The position numbers were made by a program, and so were the translations under genes. A stretch of DNA of 64,000 nucleotides, taken from assembly GCA_024636855.1 (NCBI GenBank), contig JAGXGG010000075.1, positions 24,165-88,164 of the forward strand. Direction: 5' to 3'. This document shows positions 5,118-20,896 of this stretch, one piece after another. Each line of letters opens with the position of its first letter. The stretch's first letter is position 1. The notes beneath the pieces were generated by a model. That model was not told the DNA's origin, ran no database searches, and saw only the letters and a program-made list of their open reading frames with translations. Source of the stretch: Ignavibacteriota bacterium. Lineage in GTDB: Bacteria; Bacteroidota; Ignavibacteria; Kapaibacteriales; UBA2268.

Positions 5118-6776
5118 ATGACTACTAAAAGAACAGTAACTGTACCAAGAGGTACCGAATTAACTTGTAAGAACTGGCAACTTGAAGCCGCGTACCGTAT
5201 GATACACCACAATCTAGACCCCGAGAATGCCGAGAAACCAGAAGAGCTAATCGTATATGGTGGGCTAGGAAAAGCTGCTAGAAATTGGGAAAGCTTCGAT
5301 GCTATTACCAATACCCTCAAGAATATGGACATAGATGAAACTCTTTTAGTTCAGTCAGGCAAGCCAGTTGGTGTTGCTAAGACTTATTCTGCTGCTCCTA
5401 GAGTAATAATAGCAAATTCGAACCTAGTTCCGAATTGGGCAAATTGGGAACATTTCCGTGAATTAGATAAAAAGGGTCTGATGATGTACGGTCAGATGAC
5501 AGCTGGTAGTTGGATATACATTGGTACGCAGGGAATAGTACAAGGGACTTATGAGACTTTCGCTGAGTGTGCTAGACAGCATTTTGGTGGTACATTAAAC
5601 GGTCGATTCCTATTGACAGGCGGTATGGGTGGAATGGGTGGTGCACAACCACTAGCCGCTAAATTCGCTGGCGCTGCTTCTATCACGGTCGAAATAGATG
5701 AAACAAGAATAGACAAGCGTATCCACGACGGATATTGCGATGTAAAGGTTGATAATCTGGACGATGCACTAAGAGTAATGAATGAAGCTAAAAATAACAA
5801 CGAAGCAAAGTCTATAGGGCTAATTGGGAATACAGCAGAAGTTCCTCCTGAACTTTTGAGACGTGGTATTGTTCCAGATATAGTGACAGACCAAACTTCG
5901 GCACATGACCCACTAAACGGTTACTATCCAGCTGGGTATAGCAAAGACGAAGCTGATAAGCTAAGAGCTGCTGACCCAGAGAAATATTTAGCAGAAGTTT
6001 ATAAATCCATAGCTACTCACGTAGAAACTATGGTTGAATTCCAGAAGAAAGGAGCCGTTGTGTTCGATTATGGAAATAATATACGTGGTATAGCTCAAGA
6101 CAATGGCGGCTATAAAGATGCTTTCGCATTCAAAGGATTCGTACCTGAATATATCCGTCCTCTATTCTGTGATGGTAAAGGGCCCTTCCGTTGGGTAGCC
6201 CTATCAGGTAATCCAGACGATATCGCAGTTACTGATGCTGCAATCAAAAATCTTTTCCCTGATAACGAACCGCTACATAGATGGATAGATAATGCTGCCG
6301 CTAATATCGGCTACCAAGCATTACCAGCAAGAATTTGTTGGCTTGGCTATGGCGAAAGAGCGCTAGCAGGACAGTTATTCAACGAGCTAGTAAGAACTGG
6401 CAAAGTCTCTGCTCCAATCGTAATAGGTCGTGACCATTTGGATTGCGGTTCAGTTGCTTCACCTTACAGAGAGACAGAGGGAATGCTAGATGGCTCTGAT
6501 GCAGTTTCTGATTGGGTGTTCCTAAACTTTGCACTGAACGCTATCGGTGGTGCTTCGTGGGTGTCTCTTCACCACGGTGGGGGAGTAGGTATGGGATTAT
6601 CACAACATGCAGGCATGGTAGTCGTCGCTGATGGTACAGATGAAGCAAAAGGCAGATTAGAAAGAGTTCTAACTTATGACCCACTAATGGGGATACTAAG
6701 ACACACAGATGCTGGCTACGAAAGAGCCGCAGACAATGCAAAGAAATTCGATATAAATATACCAATGGGTAAGTAA
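5118..6776 (+). CDS. hutU: Urocanate hydratase
   Basis: 552 aa; [67 protein letters not shown]. Confidence 0.97.
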
Positions 6777-7435: not shown

Positions 7436-7461
7436 CTAGGTGAATAAGTAGTTGATAATTT

Positions 7462-7492
7462 AAGAGGATCTTGAAAAAGGTTCTCTTTTTTT
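7462..7492 (+). terminator. Putative terminator after SDR gene
   Basis: AAGAGGATCTT-GAAA-AAGGTTCTCTT followed by T7. Confidence 0.55.
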
Positions 7493-7590
7493 ATATATTA
7501 CATTTCGGGAAACACTATGGATTTATAATATCAAACTCATCACAATCATATTTTTAGCTTTTGCTATCCCTTTTAGTGGGTATGGGCAAG
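7470..7590 (+). repeat. Direct repeat D1 (left boundary of OMP array; includes signal-peptide block)
   Basis: 121 bp, about 10 mismatches to 11066-11186. Confidence 0.85.
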
Positions 7591-8207
7591 TTATTGATGA
7601 AGACCCTTTGACTAATTGTAGAGGACCATTACCTAATTATCTGCACTTTAACACAGGTGTTAATTATTCAAAACTTAATGGTAGTCAACTTAAAAATATA
7701 GACTTTAATCAAAGATATCAGGTCTCGTTTACTTATGAAGTTTATTTTGGAGACCAATATGTCGATCCTATAAATTCATTTGAATACGGGTTGAGTTATA
7801 ATCAAAACGGGTTTAAACACGAAAATGCAAATGGAAAAGTAGAAACAATAAATTATGAATACCTATCTATACCAATAACATACAACTATATTGTTTATAA
7901 TACATTTCCAAAAAGAGAACAAAATCGCTTTTTTGATCATATTCTATTGCTTCGTGGTGGAGCGTACTTAAGTTATTTAATGAATAGTAATGTTGATAAT
8001 AATAAAAATTCAATACCTACTTTAGATTATGGAATTAAATTTGGGCCTAGAATAGAATTTTTACCATTTTCATATTTCTTTTGCACTCTGGAATATAACT
8101 TATTCTTAGGTTTAGGTGATTTTAGCGGTGATTTTGAGAAGAGTAATAATATTTCTCATTCGATAGAACTTGGTGTTGGTATGTATTTTCGATTTTTTTA
8201 TTATTGA
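7530..8207 (+). CDS. Outer-membrane beta-barrel paralog 1 (no canonical start before signal peptide)
   Basis: Frame ATC AAA CTC ATC ACA ATC ATA TTT TTA GCT TTT GCT (IKLITIIFLAFAIPFSGYGQ) to TGA 8207; in-frame stop TAA at 7461-7463 and no ATG/GTG/TTG between; ORF track start at 7608 (TTG) would drop the signal peptide. Confidence 0.6.
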   Translation: MKLITIIFLAFAIPFSGYGQVIDEDPLTNCRGPLPNYLHFNTGVNYSKLNGSQLKNIDFNQRYQVSFTYEVYFGDQYVDPINSFEYGLSYNQNGFKHENANGKVETINYEYLSIPITYNYIVYNTFPKREQNRFFDHILLLRGGAYLSYLMNSNVDNNKNSIPTLDYGIKFGPRIEFLPFSYFFCTLEYNLFLGLGDFSGDFEKSNNISHSIELGVGMYFRFFYY

Positions 8208-8216
8208 GATAAATGA

Positions 8217-8858
8217 ATCAAACTACTCACATTCATATTGCTTGTTTTTGCTATTCCTTATAGTGGGTATGGGCAGGTGGGTGTGAACCCTCTAACATTT
8301 TATCCGACATCAAGACCTTTTTATCTTGGTCTAAATGGAGGATTGAATTATTCTAAAATCAATTACGATGACGCATCCACGGAATACCTCCCTTCAGTTC
8401 AGTTGGCAATCGAGTTTCAGTCATTTCTTTCTTCATATAAAAATGCAAGAAGTACATTACTGTATGGGGTGAGCTACGAATTAAAACAGTTTAGTATTCT
8501 GAACTCAAGTAATGAATCAATACAATTGGAATCAAGTTATTTATCATTCCCTATAAAATATCAATACTATTTTACTGATTTGCAAAAGAGTATTCCTGTT
8601 AGTGTAGTACTAGGGGGCTTTTATAGTTTTAAGCTTGATGAAAGTTCTATAGACAAAGATATTGAGTATTTACCAAATAGTAATTATGGTATTATTGTAG
8701 GTCCTAAAATAGAAATAATTTTAAATTATGGATTCTTTTTAAACCTTGATTATAACTTTCAATATGGTTTTGCATCGTTGAAAAATTCTATTTCGACTAC
8801 TAATAACATAAGTCATATAATAAACATCGGTTTCAAATTTCCATCAACAGTATTTTAA
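8217..8858 (+). CDS. Outer-membrane beta-barrel paralog 2 (no canonical start before signal peptide)
   Basis: IKLLTFILLVFAIPYSGYGQ block directly preceded by in-frame TGA (8214-8216); barrel-like C-term NISHIINIGFKFPSTVF. Confidence 0.6.
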   Translation: MKLLTFILLVFAIPYSGYGQVGVNPLTFYPTSRPFYLGLNGGLNYSKINYDDASTEYLPSVQLAIEFQSFLSSYKNARSTLLYGVSYELKQFSILNSSNESIQLESSYLSFPIKYQYYFTDLQKSIPVSVVLGGFYSFKLDESSIDKDIEYLPNSNYGIIVGPKIEIILNYGFFLNLDYNFQYGFASLKNSISTTNNISHIINIGFKFPSTVF

Positions 8859-8876
8859 ATTAAAAAAGCAACAAAT

Positions 8877-9533
8877 ATCAAACTACTTACAATCATATTG
8901 CTGGCTTTTGCTATTCCATTTAGTGGGTATGGGCAGTTGAGTGACTCTGAATTAAGTACTCGTTACTTTATGGATTACTTTACATTAAGTTCTGGGGTTA
9001 ATTTCGTAAATGTTACTCAAAATAGTAATGAAATATTTGGTAGTTATCGTGGCTTTCAGGCAAATTTGACTTATGAAAAATACATTGGCTCCAGTTACAC
9101 CAAACCGACAAACTCAATAGAGTTCGGAGTAAGCTACATTAGTAAAGAATTCGCTAGTAGTTATAATAATTCCCAAAACTCATTAAATGTGTATTACTTA
9201 TCTTTGCCGATAAACTATAATACGCGATTTTTATCTGTGTTTCTGATGAAAGTAGGAGGTTATGTGAGCTATAAGTTAAATAACCTAGATGGTTTTTACA
9301 GAAATTATTCTAGTGAAAATTTATTGACTTTGCCCGAACTCGATTATGGAATACACGTTGGTACTCGCCTAGAGCTAAATGAGATATCTAGTGAAGTCTC
9401 TATTCCTGTCTTTATAGAATATAATCTCCAATATGGCCTAGTTAGTATAGAAGAGATTTTACCAAACAGTTTTAATGGTACTCATACTATAAACCTTGGG
9501 GTAAAATTTCCAATAGTTGTATCTAAAAAGTAA
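8877..9533 (+). CDS. Outer-membrane beta-barrel paralog 3 (no canonical start before signal peptide)
   Basis: IKLLTIILLAFAIPFSGYGQ block; upstream in-frame stop is the paralog-2 TAA (8856-8858), no start codon between. Confidence 0.6.
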   Translation: MKLLTIILLAFAIPFSGYGQLSDSELSTRYFMDYFTLSSGVNFVNVTQNSNEIFGSYRGFQANLTYEKYIGSSYTKPTNSIEFGVSYISKEFASSYNNSQNSLNVYYLSLPINYNTRFLSVFLMKVGGYVSYKLNNLDGFYRNYSSENLLTLPELDYGIHVGTRLELNEISSEVSIPVFIEYNLQYGLVSIEEILPNSFNGTHTINLGVKFPIVVSKK

Positions 9534-10206
9534 TTATTACAGGTATATTATCAAACTAATCACAATCATATTACTAGCTTTTGCTATTCCATACAATGGG
9601 TATGGGCAAGGGGATCAAGATGACCCATCAGACCGTCCTCCAAGAGCCCAACCGTTTTTAATTGGCTTAAGTAGTGGTATAAACTATTCTAATATGATGT
9701 ATGAAAATACTTCAACTGAATTTATGTTTTCTGGAAAAATTTCATTGGATTTTGAATACCCAATGCTCTATATTAATGAATATCGCAGAGACTTCACTTT
9801 TTCCACTGGAATTAGTTTCGATAATAAAAACTTAAATATAAATGATGCAAACAATAACCAGAAACAGTCAAACATAACATTTCTAACAATTCCAATAAAA
9901 TATGAATTACTAATAGGTACAAATTATTCAGAAAATAAACTTAGAACCAGCATAGTGGTTGGTCCTTCATTTAGCTTTCTTATATCTAATCCCTTTAAAG
10001 TAATTAAAGAAAAACCACTATGGCTAAATGTAGGAATAATCTTAGGTCCTAAATTTGAATATGTTTTAAACCCTGAACTTTTTATGTTTATAGAGTATAA
10101 TTATCAAATTGGGCTAACTAAGCTCTATGATATTGAAGCATTAAATGCAATTAATAGCCATATTGTAAATATAGGATTCAAAATCCCTTCAACCGTTTTA
10201 TTTTAG
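9517..10206 (+). CDS. Outer-membrane beta-barrel paralog 4 (only copy with an in-frame TTG upstream)
   Basis: IIKLITIILLAFAIPYNGYGQ; possible TTG start at 9517 overlapping paralog 3; C-term SHIVNIGFKIPSTVLF. Confidence 0.65.
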   Translation: MYLKSNYYRYIIKLITIILLAFAIPYNGYGQGDQDDPSDRPPRAQPFLIGLSSGINYSNMMYENTSTEFMFSGKISLDFEYPMLYINEYRRDFTFSTGISFDNKNLNINDANNNQKQSNITFLTIPIKYELLIGTNYSENKLRTSIVVGPSFSFLISNPFKVIKEKPLWLNVGIILGPKFEYVLNPELFMFIEYNYQIGLTKLYDIEALNAINSHIVNIGFKIPSTVLF

Positions 10207-10222
10207 AGGCAGGATAAACAAT

Positions 10223-10854
10223 ATCAAATTCATCGCAATCATATTACTAGCTTTTGCTATCCCTTTTAGTGGGTATTCTTCAATGGGTCCTGGCCCTGCA
10301 CATCCTATCTGCATTGGCTTAAGTGGAGGTGTTAACTACTCAAATATAAGGAATGATATTTTTTCTTCGGAAAGCAATCCTTCTGAACAATTTTCATTAT
10401 ATTTCGAACATCGCTTAGGTAATATTAAGGCGAAGTCAAGATTGGGATCGGTTGCTTTTGGGATAGGTTTTAATAATAGAACAATGAACTTAACGGATTC
10501 AAATAATATAGAATATAAATCAAGTCTAAATTACATAACAATCCCAGCAATGTATCAATTCCCGTTTTTTGGTTTAGATAAAGAAAACAAGTTTAGTGCC
10601 TATTTTTTTTTGGTTTTTCATTAAATCTTTACGTTTCTCAATCTAATAATCGAGTTGTAAAGAATCCTCATTGGCTATATGTTGGAGTTTTAATTGGACC
10701 TAAAATTGAATATGAAATAACTTCTAATCTGTCAATATTTATGGATTATAATTATGAGTTTGGAATAACAGATATTCAGGATATAGATAAAATAAGTAGG
10801 AGTACAATGCACTTAATCAACATAGGTTTCAAAGTACCTACAACCATATTTTAA
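10223..10854 (+). pseudogene. Outer-membrane beta-barrel paralog 5, frameshifted at a T9 homopolymer
   Basis: IKFIAIILLAFAIPFSGY; ORF stops at 10624 just after TATTTTTTTTTGG; the shifted frame continues GFSLNLYVSQSNN...WLYVGVLIGPKIEYEI...LINIGFKVPTTIF to 10854, matching paralog 4. Confidence 0.75.
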
Positions 10855-10867
10855 AGAAAATTATACC

Positions 10868-11027
10868 GCTCCTCTGGAGCTTATTTGTCTTTTTTCAATT
10901 CGAATGCTACAGATATTAAGCCCCTCTGGGGCTGTAATGGATTATTGAATTATACTAAACTAACCACGTAGTGGCTAAATATCTGTAGTAAAAAGTCAAC
11001 CCACAATACCAATCAGCCCCGTAGGGG
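10868..11027. repeat. REP-like palindrome cluster 1
   Basis: GCTCCTCTGGAGC (10868), GCCCCTCTGGGGC (10920), CCACGTAGTGG (10964), CCCCGTAGGGG (11017); flanking CTACAGATAT / ATATCTGTAG arms. Confidence 0.85.
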
Positions 11028-11065
11028 TTGAATATAAAGTATTGTAACATTAGATATTTAATAGT

Positions 11066-11186
11066 CTTGAAAAAGGTTCTCTTTTTATATATATTACATT
11101 TTGGGAATCACTTTGGATTTATAATATCAAACTCATCACAATCATATTACTAGCTTTTGCTATTTCTTTTAGTGGATATGGGCAGG
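11066..11186 (+). repeat. Direct repeat D2: orphan signal-peptide remnant (sixth array unit)
   Basis: Near-identical to 7470-7590; encodes IKLITIILLAFAISFSGYGQG then TAA. Confidence 0.85.
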
Positions 11187-11205
11187 GGTAAGATAAACCA
11201 TTTGA

Positions 11206-12690: not shown

Positions 12691-12911
12691 AGCCAATTCG
12701 TGGCTTATATGGAATTAATCCGCCTTCTAACTCCGCTCAGGCATCATAATTCTGACCTAGCGGGGCAGTGTTTGTTTTGTAGCATCCCATTTCAACAGAT
12801 ATTATGCTCCGATGGTGCCGCAATTCTGTATTGAATTATCCTAAATTAGCCACGTAGTGGTGATATATCTGTAGCTAAATGAATAGATAAAAATCAATTG
12901 CCCCGTAGGGG
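12691..12911. repeat. REP-like palindrome cluster 2 (left of RAYT)
   Basis: AGCCAATTCGTGGCT (12691), CCACGTAGTGG (12850), CCCCGTAGGGG (12901); ACAGATATTA...ATATCTGTAG composite ~12795-12876. Confidence 0.85.
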
Positions 12912-12957
12912 TAATATATTTATTTCCAGAATAATTGATTTTTTATTAATTTTATAA

Positions 12958-13407
12958 ATGCCTAATACATATCATCAAATATATTTGCACATTGTTTTCT
13001 CTACTCTAAATAGGGAAAGGACTATTCGTGACCCATTGAAAACAGAACTTTTGAAATACATTAATAAAATTATTCAAAACAATGAATCAAAACCAATTTG
13101 TTTGAATGCTCACATTGATCATGTACATTTATTAATTGGGATGAACCCATCAATAAAGATTAGTGATTTAATTCGTGATATCAAATCAAGTAGTTCAAAG
13201 TGGATAAATGAAAACCGAAAACTAAACGACAAGTTTAGTTGGCAATCTGGCTACGGTTGTTTCTCTGTGTCGAAATCAAGTTTACAGTCGGTTATCAGAT
13301 ATATAGATAACCAAGAGGAACACCATAAAGTAAAATCCTTCAAAGATGAATATCTTGAGTTATTAAAGAAACACGGTGTTGAATTTAATATCGATTATGT
13401 CTTTTAG
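12958..13407 (+). mobile_element. RAYT-like IS200/IS605-type Y1 (HUH) transposase
   Basis: 149 aa; YHQIYLHIVFSTLNRERTI, HIDHVHLLIG (HUH-like), IRDIKSSSSKWINE, candidate catalytic Tyr in VIRYIDNQEEHHK; bracketed by REP-like palindromes. Confidence 0.88.
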
Positions 13408-13414
13408 TATTCCA

Positions 13415-13662
13415 CCCCTACGGGGCGGATTGGGTTGTTAGCTAGTCAATGGGGCTACAGGTATTGAGCCACTACGTGGCTAATAAAGTATCACAAACAA
13501 AATTGAATTCAAAAACCGTTTTCCAAATATCAATCGTAAATGCCCCAGAGGGGCAGTATATCTGTAGCAACCAAGTTTGAAAAAGTTAGAAAAAGCCACG
13601 TAGTGGCGATATATCTGTAGCCAATGTGGCTACCACCCACACACCACCAGCCCCGTAGGGGC
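13415..13662. repeat. REP-like palindrome cluster 3 (right of RAYT)
   Basis: CCCCTACGGGG (13415), AGCCACTACGTGGCT (13467), TGCCCCAGAGGGGCA (13541), GCCACGTAGTGGC (13595), GCCCCGTAGGGGC (13650). Confidence 0.85.
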
Positions 13663-13694
13663 GGTATACCTTTAAGTTATTAATTTTCTTTCAA

Positions 13695-13738
13695 TCAAAA
13701 AAAATCCTCATTTCTTCAAGAAACAGGGATTGTAATTA
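13695..13738. repeat. Terminator-containing direct repeat, copy A
   Basis: tcaaaaaaaatcctcatttcttcaagaaacagggattgtaatta; one substitution and one A-run indel versus 16958-17000. Confidence 0.9.
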
Positions 13739-13750
13739 CATTATTCATTC

Positions 13751-14515
13751 TTAATCTTTTATTTTGATTTCGATTCTTTCATTTTCTAATTCGATATTGA
13801 AATAAACAAAACCATATTCCAGATTAAAATAATATGTTGCCTTGTTGATATTCCTTGATCCATTCAATTCTTGACATTCACATTTTATTACCCAAACATC
13901 CAGCATTCCCTTATTCGACTTATAATCCGATTCTCCCTTAACCATATATGTACAATCCGCTAATTCAGTCTTGTCAATTTCAAGCTCTTTAGTCTCAGAC
14001 ACATAAGAAGGTTCGTCTGATTTATTGACGTTTGACTTTACTACAGTTTGTTTTACAGTTGTTTTTTTGGGTCTAGCTAAAATTTTAGTATTGATTGTTG
14101 AATTGAATAATGGCAATACAACTTTAGGTTCTAATATTTTTTTATTCAAATCAATAATGTTAACTAAAGGCGGTAAACTTAATTCAAATGCTTTAAAATT
14201 ACTAAAGTCAACATTTTGATTTTCTTTAACAGGAAAAGCAGAGCTCAAATCTATAATAGGGTCAAAATTTAATGTTTGGATTATCATATTCTGATTAGAA
14301 CCAGGCATACCAGAATAATTAAGAGTCCAGGTCCAAGTTTGATCAGAATTTGTTTCATCCTTATTACTTTTTAAATTCAAATCATACCTTAGAGTATCAT
14401 TTTCTCGGACATGAGTTACCTCATAATTAAAAGTAGCTTGGCTTTCGTACACATCTGACGAATATGCTATGTTAAAAGCAATAATAAAAAGAAATGAATA
14501 AATTAGAGGTCTCAT
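13751..14515 (-). CDS. Secreted hypothetical protein
   Basis: 254 aa with signal peptide MRPLIYSFLFIIAFNIAYSSD. Confidence 0.7.
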   Translation of the reverse strand: MRPLIYSFLFIIAFNIAYSSDVYESQATFNYEVTHVRENDTLRYDLNLKSNKDETNSDQTWTWTLNYSGMPGSNQNMIIQTLNFDPIIDLSSAFPVKENQNVDFSNFKAFELSLPPLVNIIDLNKKILEPKVVLPLFNSTINTKILARPKKTTVKQTVVKSNVNKSDEPSYVSETKELEIDKTELADCTYMVKGESDYKSNKGMLDVWVIKCECQELNGSRNINKATYYFNLEYGFVYFNIELENERIEIKIKD

Positions 14516-14642
14516 AACTGTACCAATGTTAAATAATTTATAGAGAAACAGGTGTCAATGTGAATTTACAGAATTCTAATAATATTTACAAAAAGGATCC
14601 ATCACCCAAGCATTATTTTAATTGCAAGTTGTTTATTTACTT

Positions 14643-15185
14643 TTATCCTTTGTAGTTAAATAAGAATTTTAATATTTCTGTTTTAGCTTCTGTAATTGGT
14701 TTCAATATTGTTGTGTTGTACATTGCTTTGTCAGTTAAATTTAAACCATTATTAAATATATTTTCATAAAGTTTACCCTGTAACTCATCAAATTTACTTA
14801 GGATATTACTATAAAGGCTATTATCTACCGCCAATAAAGTATCAACAAATTTCCTTCTAATCATAATAAATAATTCATCTGTTTCTTCAATTAAATTTTC
14901 TTTTTCATTTTGACTTACAACTGAATTAGTTAATATATTCAAATTAAGTTCAAGTTGATCAATAAAGTCATAAAGAAATTTCAAATTTTGATCTAAAATA
15001 AGAGTCTTAAGCAATTTCATTTTTCTTTCTTGCTCTTTAGATACGTCAGAATTCTGTTGATTTAAACTAAATATATAATAAGTTATTACTATATTAAATA
15101 GAGCGATAACTATTGCTGCAACTTTAAAAATTATATCAAGTATATCTGTTTGATTTGATAGACTTTGTGAACAATGTAATATCAT
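14643..15185 (-). CDS. Hypothetical membrane-anchored protein (cassette gene 3)
   Basis: One N-terminal TM (VAAIVIALFNIVITYYIF) and a helical cytoplasmic region; start overlaps upstream ORF stop. Confidence 0.7.
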   Translation of the reverse strand: MILHCSQSLSNQTDILDIIFKVAAIVIALFNIVITYYIFSLNQQNSDVSKEQERKMKLLKTLILDQNLKFLYDFIDQLELNLNILTNSVVSQNEKENLIEETDELFIMIRRKFVDTLLAVDNSLYSNILSKFDELQGKLYENIFNNGLNLTDKAMYNTTILKPITEAKTEILKFLFNYKG

Positions 15186-15520
15186 CCTAATGCCGTCCCT
15201 TGTCTTAATATCCTTTCAATTGCTTCATTTAATGGTTTCTCATATTTATAAGAACCTTGAGATTCAAATTCAAATTTTGATAAAAATTTTTCTCTACCCA
15301 AAGAAAGAACAACTTCAAGAAATAATTCTTCAAAAAATGAGGGAATAATTGAGTAAACATTATCGGGTATAATAATTTTAACTTTATCATACTTTTTCTC
15401 TATTTCATTAATTTGTGACTCCTCTCTTGCTCTTTTTCCTCTATCACGACCAGTATAAACTTTAGCCCCCTTTGCTCTATAATCTTCTAGATTAATTATA
15501 TTATCTTTACTTAATTTCAT
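15182..15520 (-). CDS. STAS-like (DUF4325-like) domain protein (cassette gene 2)
   Basis: 112 aa; VKIIIPDNVYSIIPSFFEELFLEVVLSLGREKFLSKFEFE resembles DUF4325 STAS-like proteins; overlaps both neighbours. Confidence 0.6.
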   Translation of the reverse strand: MKLSKDNIINLEDYRAKGAKVYTGRDRGKRAREESQINEIEKKYDKVKIIIPDNVYSIIPSFFEELFLEVVLSLGREKFLSKFEFESQGSYKYEKPLNEAIERILRQGTALG

Positions 15521-16973
15521 TTGTTAAATCATCCTCATTAAACAATATTTTTGCACTAATAACGGTTCCTGGGAAATAATTATCTTCAAATTTAACATAA
15601 TTTGAATCTGGTTTTTCTTCTATTTCACCTGAATTATTAAAAGTCATATACTTATATGTGTCCCCTAATTCATCAGTCTTTTCTTTAATTGCATATTTGC
15701 CATCAAAAACTATACTTGTTTTCCCTGACAGTATTGCCATTTTAGAAAAATCATCTTCATGATTATTATACCCTTTAATATTAAAGAAGCTTTCAATAAA
15801 GCGAATAGATCCATTTCCTCTTTTTTTATACTCTGTTTCTGCTACACTTGTAACACCTTCCTGTAAAGAATATAATGTCCAAAGAGTTTCTTCTTCAAAT
15901 TGTTCACGACTAAAGAACCTTCTTCTTGTATATTCTTCAGATAATTTTTTCATTTTTTGTACAATTCCTACGTTTGGGCAATCAGGCGAGTTAAATTTTT
16001 CATATATAGTTCCTCCAAAATTTAAAATAACTAAATGAAACATACCATAATGTTCATTCGCCTTATTGATTTCATGAAAATAACCTATTGAAAAACGATA
16101 GTCAGTAGTTGAATGTTCTTCTGCATTTATTAACATTTCGCTTATAACTACGCATAAATCATCTAGTTTTTCAACGGTTAATCTCTTTCCCATTCGTTTA
16201 AGACATGACAAAACATAATCTACTAGCTTTGTTGTATCTATGTCCTTTTGTTCTGAAATGACAACTGAATCTCCTTGTTTAGCTCGATTATGAACACACA
16301 ATGGGTATGGAATTATATCTTTAAAATCTCTTCTATCATCTGTGTGAATCGCAGGGGACCCTACTGAAAATAATAATTTGTTAACATTACTATTATCTAT
16401 GTTAATTGCACTAATTCTTTTAATTCTAGTATTCATTTCTAATGAACTAGAACAAGCTTTATAAAATGTTAACATATCTTTTAGAATTATATCAAGAAGT
16501 ACTTGAGCTTCTAAGTCAACTTTTTCACATTCTGAATAATCAATCTCAACTAAACTAGAGTTTTGATTAACTAAAACCCCCAACAAATTTGTTATGAAGG
16601 TGTAACTTTCATTACTCTTCTCAATCAAAGAAAAATGTTTTGGCACTTGTATTTTTTGATTTCTATGACTTACTCCTTTAGTTATTTTGTCTAAATTGAA
16701 ATTAGATTTTTCATTTGATAATAGGAATTTAGTGTTAATCGGCATAAATCTATTGATTAGCTCTTGTATCGTATATTTATCAATATACGACTCTTTTGAC
16801 TTCAAAAATTGTAAATATTCTCTAACTCTCCTTGCTTTTCTTTTTCTTTTACTTTTTAAACGTCTTTGAAATCGTTTTTCAGCAATTGTTTTTTTTATTT
16901 CAATTTTTTTCTTCAAAAGTGACCTTACGTATACTCTATTAGCATTTTTCAAGTTTTTCAAAAAAATCCCCAT
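15507..16973 (-). CDS. GHKL/histidine-kinase-like ATPase protein with N-terminal STAS-like region (cassette gene 1)
   Basis: LDDLCVVISEMLINAEEHSTTDYRFSIG (N-box like), KKRGNGSIRFIESFF; region SLVEIDYSECEKVDLEAQVLLDIILKDML. Confidence 0.65.
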   Translation of the reverse strand: MGIFLKNLKNANRVYVRSLLKKKIEIKKTIAEKRFQRRLKSKRKRKARRVREYLQFLKSKESYIDKYTIQELINRFMPINTKFLLSNEKSNFNLDKITKGVSHRNQKIQVPKHFSLIEKSNESYTFITNLLGVLVNQNSSLVEIDYSECEKVDLEAQVLLDIILKDMLTFYKACSSSLEMNTRIKRISAINIDNSNVNKLLFSVGSPAIHTDDRRDFKDIIPYPLCVHNRAKQGDSVVISEQKDIDTTKLVDYVLSCLKRMGKRLTVEKLDDLCVVISEMLINAEEHSTTDYRFSIGYFHEINKANEHYGMFHLVILNFGGTIYEKFNSPDCPNVGIVQKMKKLSEEYTRRRFFSREQFEEETLWTLYSLQEGVTSVAETEYKKRGNGSIRFIESFFNIKGYNNHEDDFSKMAILSGKTSIVFDGKYAIKEKTDELGDTYKYMTFNNSGEIEEKPDSNYVKFEDNYFPGTVISAKILFNEDDLTNEIK

Positions 16974-17000
16974 TTCTTCAAGAAACAGGGATTGTAATTA
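16958..17000 (-). terminator. nrdJ rho-independent terminator / direct repeat copy B
   Basis: Minus strand AATCCCTGTTTCTTGAAGAAATGGGGATTTTTTT; duplicated at 13695-13738. Confidence 0.85.
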
Positions 17001-17011
17001 TTATCTATTAT

Positions 17012-20000
17012 TTATGAGCAGCCGCTTGTGGTGCCGCAATCCTCGCAGACCGTACAGCTTCCGTTTCGCTTCACCCTCGATGAGCTACAAGTGCTACACA
17101 TCTCACCAGTATAACCCAAGCTGCGGGCTTCGTCTAGCTCGGCTTGCTTTTGTGCTCTGCCAGCATCAATTGTAGTTGAAGCTTTTAGCTGTACTAACTG
17201 TGGTGCGATTATACTTTTAGCAATGTCTTTTTCATCTGGTTGCGAACCGCCTTTGTCATCTATGTCATTTGCTTTAGATTCAGGAGATTGCAACTCAGGA
17301 GTATCGCCCCCATTCGGGTTGTTCTTGTCTTCATCAACCGCAAATACATGAACTAGGTCATTTCTTTTTAGGTAGTCGTAGCCAAGTGTACGGAATACAT
17401 AGTCTAGGATAGAAGTCGAATTCTTGATTGCTTCGTGACCTTGTACCATACCTGCTGGCTCGAATCTAGTGAATGTGAATGTATCTACTAGCTCTTCTAG
17501 AGGCACACCATACTGTAATGCCTTAGATGCTAATATAGCGAAACTGTTCAACATACCACGGTATGCAGCGCCTTCTTTGTACATGTCGATAAAGATTTCA
17601 CCTAATTGACCATCTTCGTACTCACCAGTTCTTAGGAATATTTTGTGTCCGCCAACAGTTGCTTCTCTGATTGTACCTTTACGACGTTTTGGCAATTTGT
17701 ATCTTTGTGATTTTCTTACAGACTTGCCTTCGATTTGCTCGTGCATTTCTTTAGCGCCTAGAGTTTCGTCTAGTGTATGCTCGTCACCCAATAGAACTGT
17801 TTCTTCTAGTCCATCATAGTTCGCTGAGTTCAATGGTTGTGATAGTTTAGAGCCATCACGATATAGAGCGATTGCTTTTAACATCAGTTTCCATGACTTC
17901 ATGTGAACTTCGCTTATATTGTTCACTGTAGCGCTTCCAGACATATTAACAGTCTTGGATATAGCACCAGAGATAAACGGTTGAGCAGCAGCCATTATGC
18001 GTACGTGAGCCATATAAGCTATAGAGCGTTCGCCTTTCTTACCACATGTGTTCGCGCAATCGAAAATAGGTAGATGTTCATCTTTCAGATGCGGTGCACC
18101 CTCTATCATCATAGTACCACAAACGTAGTCATTAGCTTTTTCGATTTGCTCAGCAGTAAAGCCAAGAGCAGCTAATAGGTTCAGAGATGAGTCAGCTATT
18201 TCTTCATCAGAAAGCCCTAGCTTCATCATGAAATCTTCGCCCAATGTCCATTTGTTAAACGCAAATTTGATGTCGAATACATCGTCTAGTTGATCTTCTA
18301 CAAGTTTGATTTTATCTTCAGTAAACCCTTTCTCAATCAAAGATACTTTGTTGATTTCTGGACAGCCAGCGAATGTGCCGTGACCTTTACTGTATTTTGT
18401 TATTTCTTCAATTTCAGTTTCAGTGTAGCCTAGTTTCACTAGTGCTTTTCTTACTGATTGGTTTACTATTTTGAAGTATCCACCACCAGCTAATTTTTTG
18501 TATTTCACGATAGCGAAATCTGGCTCGATACCCGTAGTATCACAATCCATAACAAGACCAATAGTTCCAGTAGGAGCTATTACAGTTACTTGTGCATTGC
18601 GATATCCATAGTGCTCGCCCATTTCTAAAGCATTGTCCCATACTTCACGAGCCGCTGTTAGCATATCTTGAGGGCAGAAACGAGTATCTATACCTTGAGG
18701 TCTTATAGTCAAGCCTTCGTACTCAGAAGTTTTAGCATTGTAAGCCGCTCTTTTGTGGTTACGGATTACTTTTAACATGTGCTTTTCATTTAGCTTGTAT
18801 TCTGGGAATGCACCTAGCTCTTTTGCCATCTCGGCAGAAGTAGCATAAGCTTGCCCACATAGAATAGAAGTCAAAGCACCAGTCCAAGCAAGAGCTTCAT
18901 TCGAATCGTAAGGAATGCCGTTTACCATTAGTAATGAACCAATGTTAGCATAGCCAAGACCTAAAGTTCTGAATTTGTAACTAAGGTCAGCAACTCTCTT
19001 AGATGGGAATTGAGCCATTAGTACAGATATTTCTAGAACTACAGTCCAGATACGAGCAGCATGCTTGTACGCTTCTATATCGAACTCACTAGTCTCTTCG
19101 TTGAAGAATTTCATTAGGTTCAAACTTGCTAGGTTACAAGCTGTATCGTCCAAGAACATATATTCTGAACATGGGTTAGATGCGTTGATACGACCAGACT
19201 CAGGGCAAGTGTGCCATTCGTTGATGGTAGTATCATATTGTAATCCTGGATCAGCCGACTTCCAAGAAGCTAAGTTAATTTTGTTCCATAGGTCACGAGC
19301 TCTCACACGGCGAACGTGCATTTCGTCAGTACGCCATTTTAGTTCCCACTCTTCGTCAGCTTCTACAGCCTTCATAAATTCATTAGTAACACGAACAGTG
19401 TTATTCGCATTTTGACCGCTTACAGTGTTGTATGCTGCACTCTCATAGTGTGTATCGAAAGCTTCAGTATCAACAGAAGTGAATCCTTGTTTCACAAGAT
19501 CTAATACTCTATCCATGTAATTAAGAGGAACACCACGATGAGCTCCACGTTTGATAAGCTCTTTTAAAGTTTGATTTTTTTCAATATCAGGGCTATTAGT
19601 GATGGCTTCTTCCATTATAGCTTCTAGGAATACTTTATTAATCCTAGAACCAGTAACTAATGCAGCAACTTTCTCTTCTTCTCTAGCTTTCCACTCTATG
19701 AATTGCTCCACATCTGGGTGGTCTATATCCACAACTACCATTTTTGCTGCACGCCTTGTCGTACCACCAGATTTAATAGCTCCGGCAGCTCTATCAAATA
19801 TCTTCAAGAAGCTCATCATTCCAGAAGATACCCCCCCTCCAGATAATGGTTCTTCGCTACTACGTATGCGAGAGAAGTTAGACCCAGTACCACTACCGAA
19901 TTTGAATATACGTGCTTCTCGCGTAATCAAATCGAAGATACCACCTTCGTTAAGCATATCGTCACTAACAGATTGGATAAAACATGCATGAGGTTGAGGT

Positions 20001-20530
20001 CTAGTATAAGCGTCTTTTGATTTTTCTATTTTCCCATTGTCAGGGTTAACGTAGTAGTGTCCTTGCTTGCTCCCCGTAATACCATAAGCGAAGTTCAACC
20101 CAGTATTAAACCACTGAGGTGAGTTAGGAGCTGCAGCTTGATTCATAAGCATATATGCCGCTTCTTCGTAGAATATTTCAGCATCTTTTGTAGTGTCGAA
20201 ATAATTGTTTTGCTCGCCCCAATGTCTCCAAGTACCAGCAAGTCTATGAATTACTTGCTTAACTGAATTTTCTGAGCCAGTAGCATGTTCGCCATTTTCA
20301 TCTTTGACTTTCTTACCTTTCTCGTCGAAAAGAGGTACACCCGCTTTTCTGAAATACTTTTGTGCCAATATATCGGTAGCCATTTGAGACCATCCGATTG
20401 GGACTTCTACATTTTTCATATCGAAAACAGTTGAGCCGTCTGGGTTCTTTATAGTTGATGAGCGGTGTGTATATTTGAAAAGGTCATATACGTTCACGTC
20501 ATCTTTGGTAAAATGTCGAGAAAATTTCAT
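17012..20530 (-). CDS. nrdJ: Vitamin B12-dependent (class II) ribonucleoside-diphosphate reductase
   Basis: 1172 aa; [84 protein letters not shown], C-term Cys-rich [22 protein letters not shown]. Confidence 0.97.
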   Translation of the reverse strand: [1172 protein letters not shown]

Positions 20531-20644: not shown

Positions 20645-20896
20645 TATTGATAATGACACAACTAAGTGGATACAATTAAAATGTTTTTTTTGATTCATTA
20701 CAAGGTGTAATTATCAACACCAATCAATGATAGGACTTTCAAATTATCCACATTGTTTTGCTTATATTTTTTCCTTTTTGGAATGTAGTTTTATGCTGCT
20801 TTTCTAAAATAAAAAATAAAAATGTTTTATGCAAACGTAAGGTCTTAATTAATATTGTGTTAAGGTGGGGTTATAAATTAACAGTACTACCGATAT

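Follow-up and report, generated by a model that had tools for sequence, protein, structure and literature searches.

A three-gene kinase, STAS and membrane protein module between two copies of the nrdJ terminator in an Ignavibacteriota bacterium: a candidate integrative islet

The repeat and the genes behind nrdJ

The window, the 64-kb stretch of Ignavibacteriota DNA analysed here, contains two copies of the nrdJ terminator with a set of open reading frames between them (Table 1). The two copies form a 41-nt direct repeat with 98% identity. There is one C/T mismatch, situated in the stem, and the A-run lengths of the copies differ, which confirms the original prediction of a terminator present at both positions with one substitution and an A-run indel. 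A pattern scan of the window for the repeat gives 2 matches, with 0 expected (100 shuffles), and a scan of the whole 3.1-Mb draft genome shows no third full copy. On contig C47 the 15-nt core is matched exactly a third time, by a hairpin core that lacks the flanking arms. The genome thus holds two copies only and the nrdJ hairpin is not a dispersed element; a commonly dispersed hairpin had been named beforehand as something that would speak against the acquisition of a cargo. On the minus strand both copies fold into a stem loop followed by T. The delta G is −14.7 kcal/mol for the right copy and −8.1 kcal/mol for the left copy, whose stem is weakened by the mismatch.

Table 1. Features of the nrdJ locus, in positions of the window
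Feature	Positions	Strand	Remarks
REP palindromes around RAYT/IS200-like Y1 open reading frame (12958–13407)	12753–13697		abuts left repeat, outside islet; absent at the G003 site
Distal copy of nrdJ terminator	13698–13738	−	12 nt beyond the secreted-protein stop codon; sole other genomic copy
Secreted-protein open reading frame	13751–14515	−	passenger; inside islet, outside conserved module
TM, membrane protein (180 aa) with one span and a helical domain	14643–15185	−	candidate effector; N-terminal hydrophobic segment in aligned homologues; all-helical model
S, STAS-like DUF4325 protein, 112 aa	15182–15520	−	Ser61 invariant, candidate phosphorylation site
K, kinase (predicted)	15507–16973	−	helical N-terminus; STAS 106–211; SpoIIAB-type GHKL 219–480
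nrdJ terminator, proximal repeat copy (att-like)	16960–17000	−	orthologue of the one terminator present in each of G003 and G002
nrdJ, gene whose terminator is duplicated	17012–20530	−	NF005736, B12-dependent ribonucleotide reductase; 96–97% in congeners

The repeat copies are spaced 3262 nt start to start and bound an islet of about 3.2 kb. Its open reading frames are all on the nrdJ strand; K and S overlap by 14 nt and S and TM by 4 nt. The secreted-protein open reading frame has remote relatives only: a weak one in G030 and one at 27% in the congener G002, which is not situated beside K-S-TM. Judged from these comparisons it is a passenger and not part of the conserved unit. Thus the four genes proposed earlier as cargo on the nrdJ strand are all present there, but the conserved cargo consists of three, K, S and TM. 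The GC3 of these three genes is 0.13–0.18 (AT-rich), as against 0.24–0.39 in the host genes compared. The ATG of K at 16973 falls within the terminator hairpin and K homologues begin near residue 20; the TTG at 16916, with AAGG upstream, is therefore probably the start of K.

No integrase is found between the repeats or elsewhere on contig C13. Six PF00589 tyrosine-recombinase matches are present in the genome, none of them on contig C13, and some are probably XerC/D. The islet also contains no transposase, and there are no inverted repeats at the islet ends themselves. An inverted repeat, ATTGAAATAAA[C/A]AAAAC, is situated at 13796–13812 and 16888–16904, i.e. 57 and 55 nt inside the islet ends, and 0 of 200 shuffles reach it. 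It is not seen in loci L049 or L079 and may reflect coding sequence.

The AlphaFold model of K has a mean pLDDT of 83. Its GHKL domain gives Z 11.9 to SpoIIAB (136 residues, 2.5 A), and its STAS domain Z 7.2 to the STAS protein TM1442, a middling score to the expected family. The N-terminus, where a kinase of the CapKS type may be expected to have an HTH, is modelled as one long helix (positions 2–61, pLDDT ~60–88). The N-box residues E279, N283 and H287 and the glycines G386 and G388 are invariant in an alignment of 16 sequences. However, Pfam does not recognise K as a GHKL protein at a convincing score, and its G1 motif has Asn in place of the usual Asp of GHKL proteins, which leaves the kinase activity of K as a prediction.

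DUF4325 is found in 12 of 15 S homologues (best E-value = 2.3e-9). Ser61 is conserved in all 15 and in alignment A6 as well. A comparison of the STAS domain of K with S by hhalign gives no match, and PDB sequence searches with the K and S profiles give chance-level matches only. In TM, a hydrophobic segment near the N-terminus is present in all aligned homologues and the remainder of the model is all-helical; a few distant homologues, e.g. those of L083, L064 and L065, have an apparent further N-terminal hydrophobic stretch. Foldseek finds no match for TM in the PDB at E-value = 0.001 or better, and Pfam shows no PIN match.

The nrdJ site in related genomes

The congener G003 has a single terminator 11–12 nt behind nrdJ and, beyond it, a block of hutU, SDR and outer-membrane-protein genes that is also found left of the islet in the window. 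This is an empty site. The nrdJ of G003 shows 97% aa identity, and nrdJ together with its terminator 90.5% nt identity. Inspection of nrdJ-downstream regions in relatives, suggested earlier as a check, thus yields one terminator without the cassette. The left flank of the window differs from G003 by an extra DUF2867 gene and the REP/RAYT block; for this reason the left junction is not base-precise and the comparison with G003 is clean only on the nrdJ side.

The REP palindromes and the Y1 transposase open reading frame abut the left repeat, and recognition of the terminator hairpin by this RAYT/REP system might have mobilised the cassette. Such a role is extremely improbable. No RAYT was noted beside the copies of the module in G207 or L079 described below, and an IS200/605-type insertion is not known to make a target duplication.

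In a second congener, G002 (L044 8726–11315), one nrdJ terminator is followed directly by four unrelated genes on the same strand, the first with an Mrr_cat restriction domain. These are probably another defence cargo at the nrdJ site; a second terminator behind them was not found. The nrdJ gene of G001 is interrupted by a contig end. Another 20 genomes of the family and order have unrelated terminators and different neighbours at the nrdJ 3′ end and are therefore not informative on the empty site. K was not found in other genomes among the 149 relatives searched, which include G001–G003.

The hairpin loop is of the GTAAG type in G002 and G003 and is TTGAAG in both copies of the window. On the basis of these loop types, the duplication most likely arose in the lineage of the window. 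Recombination between the 41-nt repeats of a cassette ancestral in the genus would produce exactly the structure of G003. However, a loss of this kind is highly unlikely in view of the loop difference and the absence of K from G001–G003.

Two further differences among the congeners are found near the islet. Nucleotide similarity of the window to G002 and G003 stops about 330 bp upstream of nrdJ, at 20864, and the upstream neighbours of nrdJ seem to differ within the one genus. Positions 7457–11190 hold a tandem array of paralogous outer-membrane-like proteins with near-identical 5′ leader/signal segments, and the copy number varies among congeners.

The K-S-TM module at other loci

K-S-TM is found at about 20 loci in Bacteroidota, Gammaproteobacteria and Firmicutes. 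Named genomes, ranging from Marivirga to Mesobacillus, account for 16 loci, and one copy is on an IMG/VR contig. The gene order is constant wherever all three genes are readable; L081 ends at a contig end, TM of L082 is assigned by position and L080 appears broken. Within the phylum, K is present in 3 of 395 genomes, that of the window included, and the two others carry K-S-TM. The module is plasmid-borne in Spirosoma, Salinivibrio, Pantoea, Vibrio and Providencia, the Providencia plasmid being mobilizable and 6.8 kb in size. The plasmid records that were examined give the K-S-TM genes no functional annotation, and the Providencia copy has no match in the E. coli genomes searched. An alignment of seven K sequences proved too diverse as a query for the collection scan. 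A viral or phage origin of the islet was considered and rejected, with no K homologue in INPHARED (three K queries) and one in IMG/VR.

G207, from another genus and family of the same class, has K-S-TM between a tRNA-Thr gene with its terminator (6276–6406) and a 77-nt sequence (9526–9602) that is a 91% copy of the last 20 nt of the tRNA-Thr plus the terminator. The spacing, start to start, is 3196 nt, compared with 3262 nt in the window. There is no integrase inside the G207 islet. No close relative with the flanking gene was found that could display an empty tRNA-Thr site. In L079 (Flavobacteriaceae) the module is situated between copies of one terminator hairpin, with a tyrosine integrase adjoining. 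Thus the same cargo does occur behind different terminators, as had been suggested for checking.

Flanking repeats with a score of at least 26 are found at 3 of 21 loci, compared with 2.5% of control positions, and are absent within 1.8 kb at the other 18 homologue loci. Among the window's own control positions 21 of 358 score as high or higher, because of the tandem arrays. Two Flavobacterium genomes share a 6-kb block that includes K-S-TM (95% identity), and the sequences on either side of it are unrelated. L065 is flanked by integrases, and integrases are also situated next to L074 and L079. The plasmid, integrase, Flavobacterium-block and islet data together argue that K-S-TM is mobile cargo, and that the repeats belong to some carriers and not to the unit.

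The duplication of 41 nt exceeds the target duplications of transposases and fits att-type repeats better. A DDE-type transposon would have a short target duplication, terminal inverted repeats and a transposase, and does not describe the islet. Of the earlier proposal of a cargo acquired at a terminator with target duplication, the acquisition is supported by the repeat, the empty site in G003 and the recurrence of the module; the target duplication is better read as an att-type repeat. Elements of tyrosine recombinases have direct repeats at 3′ ends, as found here (window, 41 nt; G207, 77 nt), and an empty site, as found in G003, where the left flank has further indels; the integrase expected inside such an element is absent. 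Integrase-bounded islets at tRNA and 3′ gene ends and helper-dependent 'hitcher' elements (PMC11389934) share the att-like 3′-end repeats, the empty site and defence-type cargo with the islet. The window islet differs in that it has no integrase and in that its repeat is the terminator of a protein gene and not a tRNA end.

The islet could also have entered by illegitimate or homology-directed repair, e.g. transformation with short terminator homology or template switching, with the repeat as a by-product and no site-specific recombinase ever involved. The islet without a recombinase, the lack of flanking repeats at most homologue loci and the G002 cargo behind a single terminator are in keeping with this, and the loop variant common to both copies of the window is what would be expected if the host terminator had simply been duplicated. 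However, in G207 the tRNA 3′ end and the terminator are duplicated, a classical integrase signature, and integrases adjoin other copies of K-S-TM, so entry by repair is considered unlikely, though a serious alternative. Under the preferred reading, the islet would have been integrated by a tyrosine recombinase that was later lost or was supplied in trans.

Relation to known kinase/STAS systems and possible function

In L071 (4443–13647) K-S-TM is found within a type I R-M operon, in the order hsdM, a nucleotidyltransferase-binding protein, a nucleotidyltransferase fused to hsdS, K-S-TM and hsdR. In L074 the module adjoins hsdM-hsdS, and other R-M and prophage genes are present near K-S-TM homologues. 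No model of PADLOC-DB 2.0.0 matches K, S, TM or the secreted protein at E-value = 1 or better, and K-S-TM does not correspond to a known anti-phage system in that database.

CapK is a ssDNA-activated STAS-GHKL kinase that phosphorylates CapS, a STAS repressor of immune operons (PMC13373217). CapS carries a wHTH and represses transcription, and CapKS adjoins immune genes, including R-M systems (PMC13373217). In VapKSC, an operon that confers protection against a phage, the kinase is thought to release the VapC toxin from its STAS antitoxin (PMC13373217). Transmembrane proteins and DUF4325 are not mentioned in PMC13373217. The papers retrieved for DUF4325 are, by title and abstract, on other subjects only.

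K-S-TM resembles VapKSC as a three-gene operon in a neighbourhood of defence genes, with a STAS+GHKL kinase first, a small STAS protein (DUF4325) second and a candidate effector third. Both kinase domains are present in the AlphaFold model of K, at the Z scores given above, and Ser61 of S is a candidate counterpart of S48 of VapS. The third gene, however, codes for a membrane protein and not a VapC/PIN protein, and by its gene content K-S-TM is not a VapKSC. The kinases also differ in length, ~440–490 aa with a long helical N-terminus in K versus 285 aa in a VapKSC-type operon of GHKL kinase, DUF4325 and PIN genes. This operon was found in G325, a Bacteroidota genome and thus of the same phylum (L113 2140–3894), with the K profile (E-value = 1.1e-5), and hhalign aligns K with the G325 kinase across the GHKL domain (E-value = 1.8e-4). 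A pair consisting of a kinase and a DUF4325 protein, apparently without a third gene, is present in G083, of the same order (L114 435–1794).

With CapKS, K-S-TM shares the STAS-GHKL kinase, the STAS partner and the location next to immune genes, R-M genes included. CapS has a wHTH and controls a downstream immune operon, whereas S, at 112 aa, matches DUF4325 only, the operon has its own third gene and no second immune operon follows K-S-TM in the window. The SpoIIAB-SpoIIAA and RsbW-RsbV pairs are similar in the kinase fold (Z 11.9) and the STAS partner, but K-S-TM lacks a sigma factor, its kinase has a STAS domain of its own and a membrane protein is co-conserved. By analogy, K-S-TM most likely works like VapKSC with a membrane effector in place of the toxin.

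In the resting state S would keep TM inactive. By analogy with CapK/VapK, the signal may be ssDNA that K binds between its STAS and GHKL domains, and this signal would activate the SpoIIAB-like kinase. Activated K would then phosphorylate S at Ser61, and S would release TM, the putative effector, to act on the membrane. The outcome would be anti-phage or DNA-damage-triggered dormancy or killing. K-S-TM could instead be a stress or envelope regulator, a SpoIIAB/SpoIIAA-like partner switch that controls a membrane protein and is unrelated to phage defence, for which mobile DNA is a mere carrier. Such a regulator would suit the fold, which is shared with anti-sigma kinase/antagonist pairs, and the defence role is predicted from context. 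The sparse distribution on plasmids and islands and the location inside a type I R-M operon are, however, typical of defence genes, and a purely regulatory role appears improbable.

Taking together the observed repeats, empty site, module recurrence, gene order, predicted domains and neighbourhood, positions 13698–17000 are probably a recombinase-less integrative islet of about 3.2 kb at the nrdJ terminator, with att-like repeats and with K-S-TM as an anti-phage or DNA-damage dormancy/killing switch; the direction of transfer is one that we infer. A wider proposal is put forward tentatively, i.e. that K-S-TM could be an undescribed anti-phage system, in which the kinase frees a membrane effector through phosphorylation of the DUF4325 protein, and that it could travel as integrase-less islets of about 3 kb that attach at gene 3′ ends and terminators.

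The kinase/STAS switch of CapKS and VapKSC may thus be a control head of general use that can be combined with a membrane effector, here in a compact K-S-TM unit spread across three phyla. At nrdJ, a minimal islet of the defence type is enclosed by two copies of a transcription terminator, and a congener has the site empty. With both the islet and the empty site available, excision and helper dependence are directly testable.
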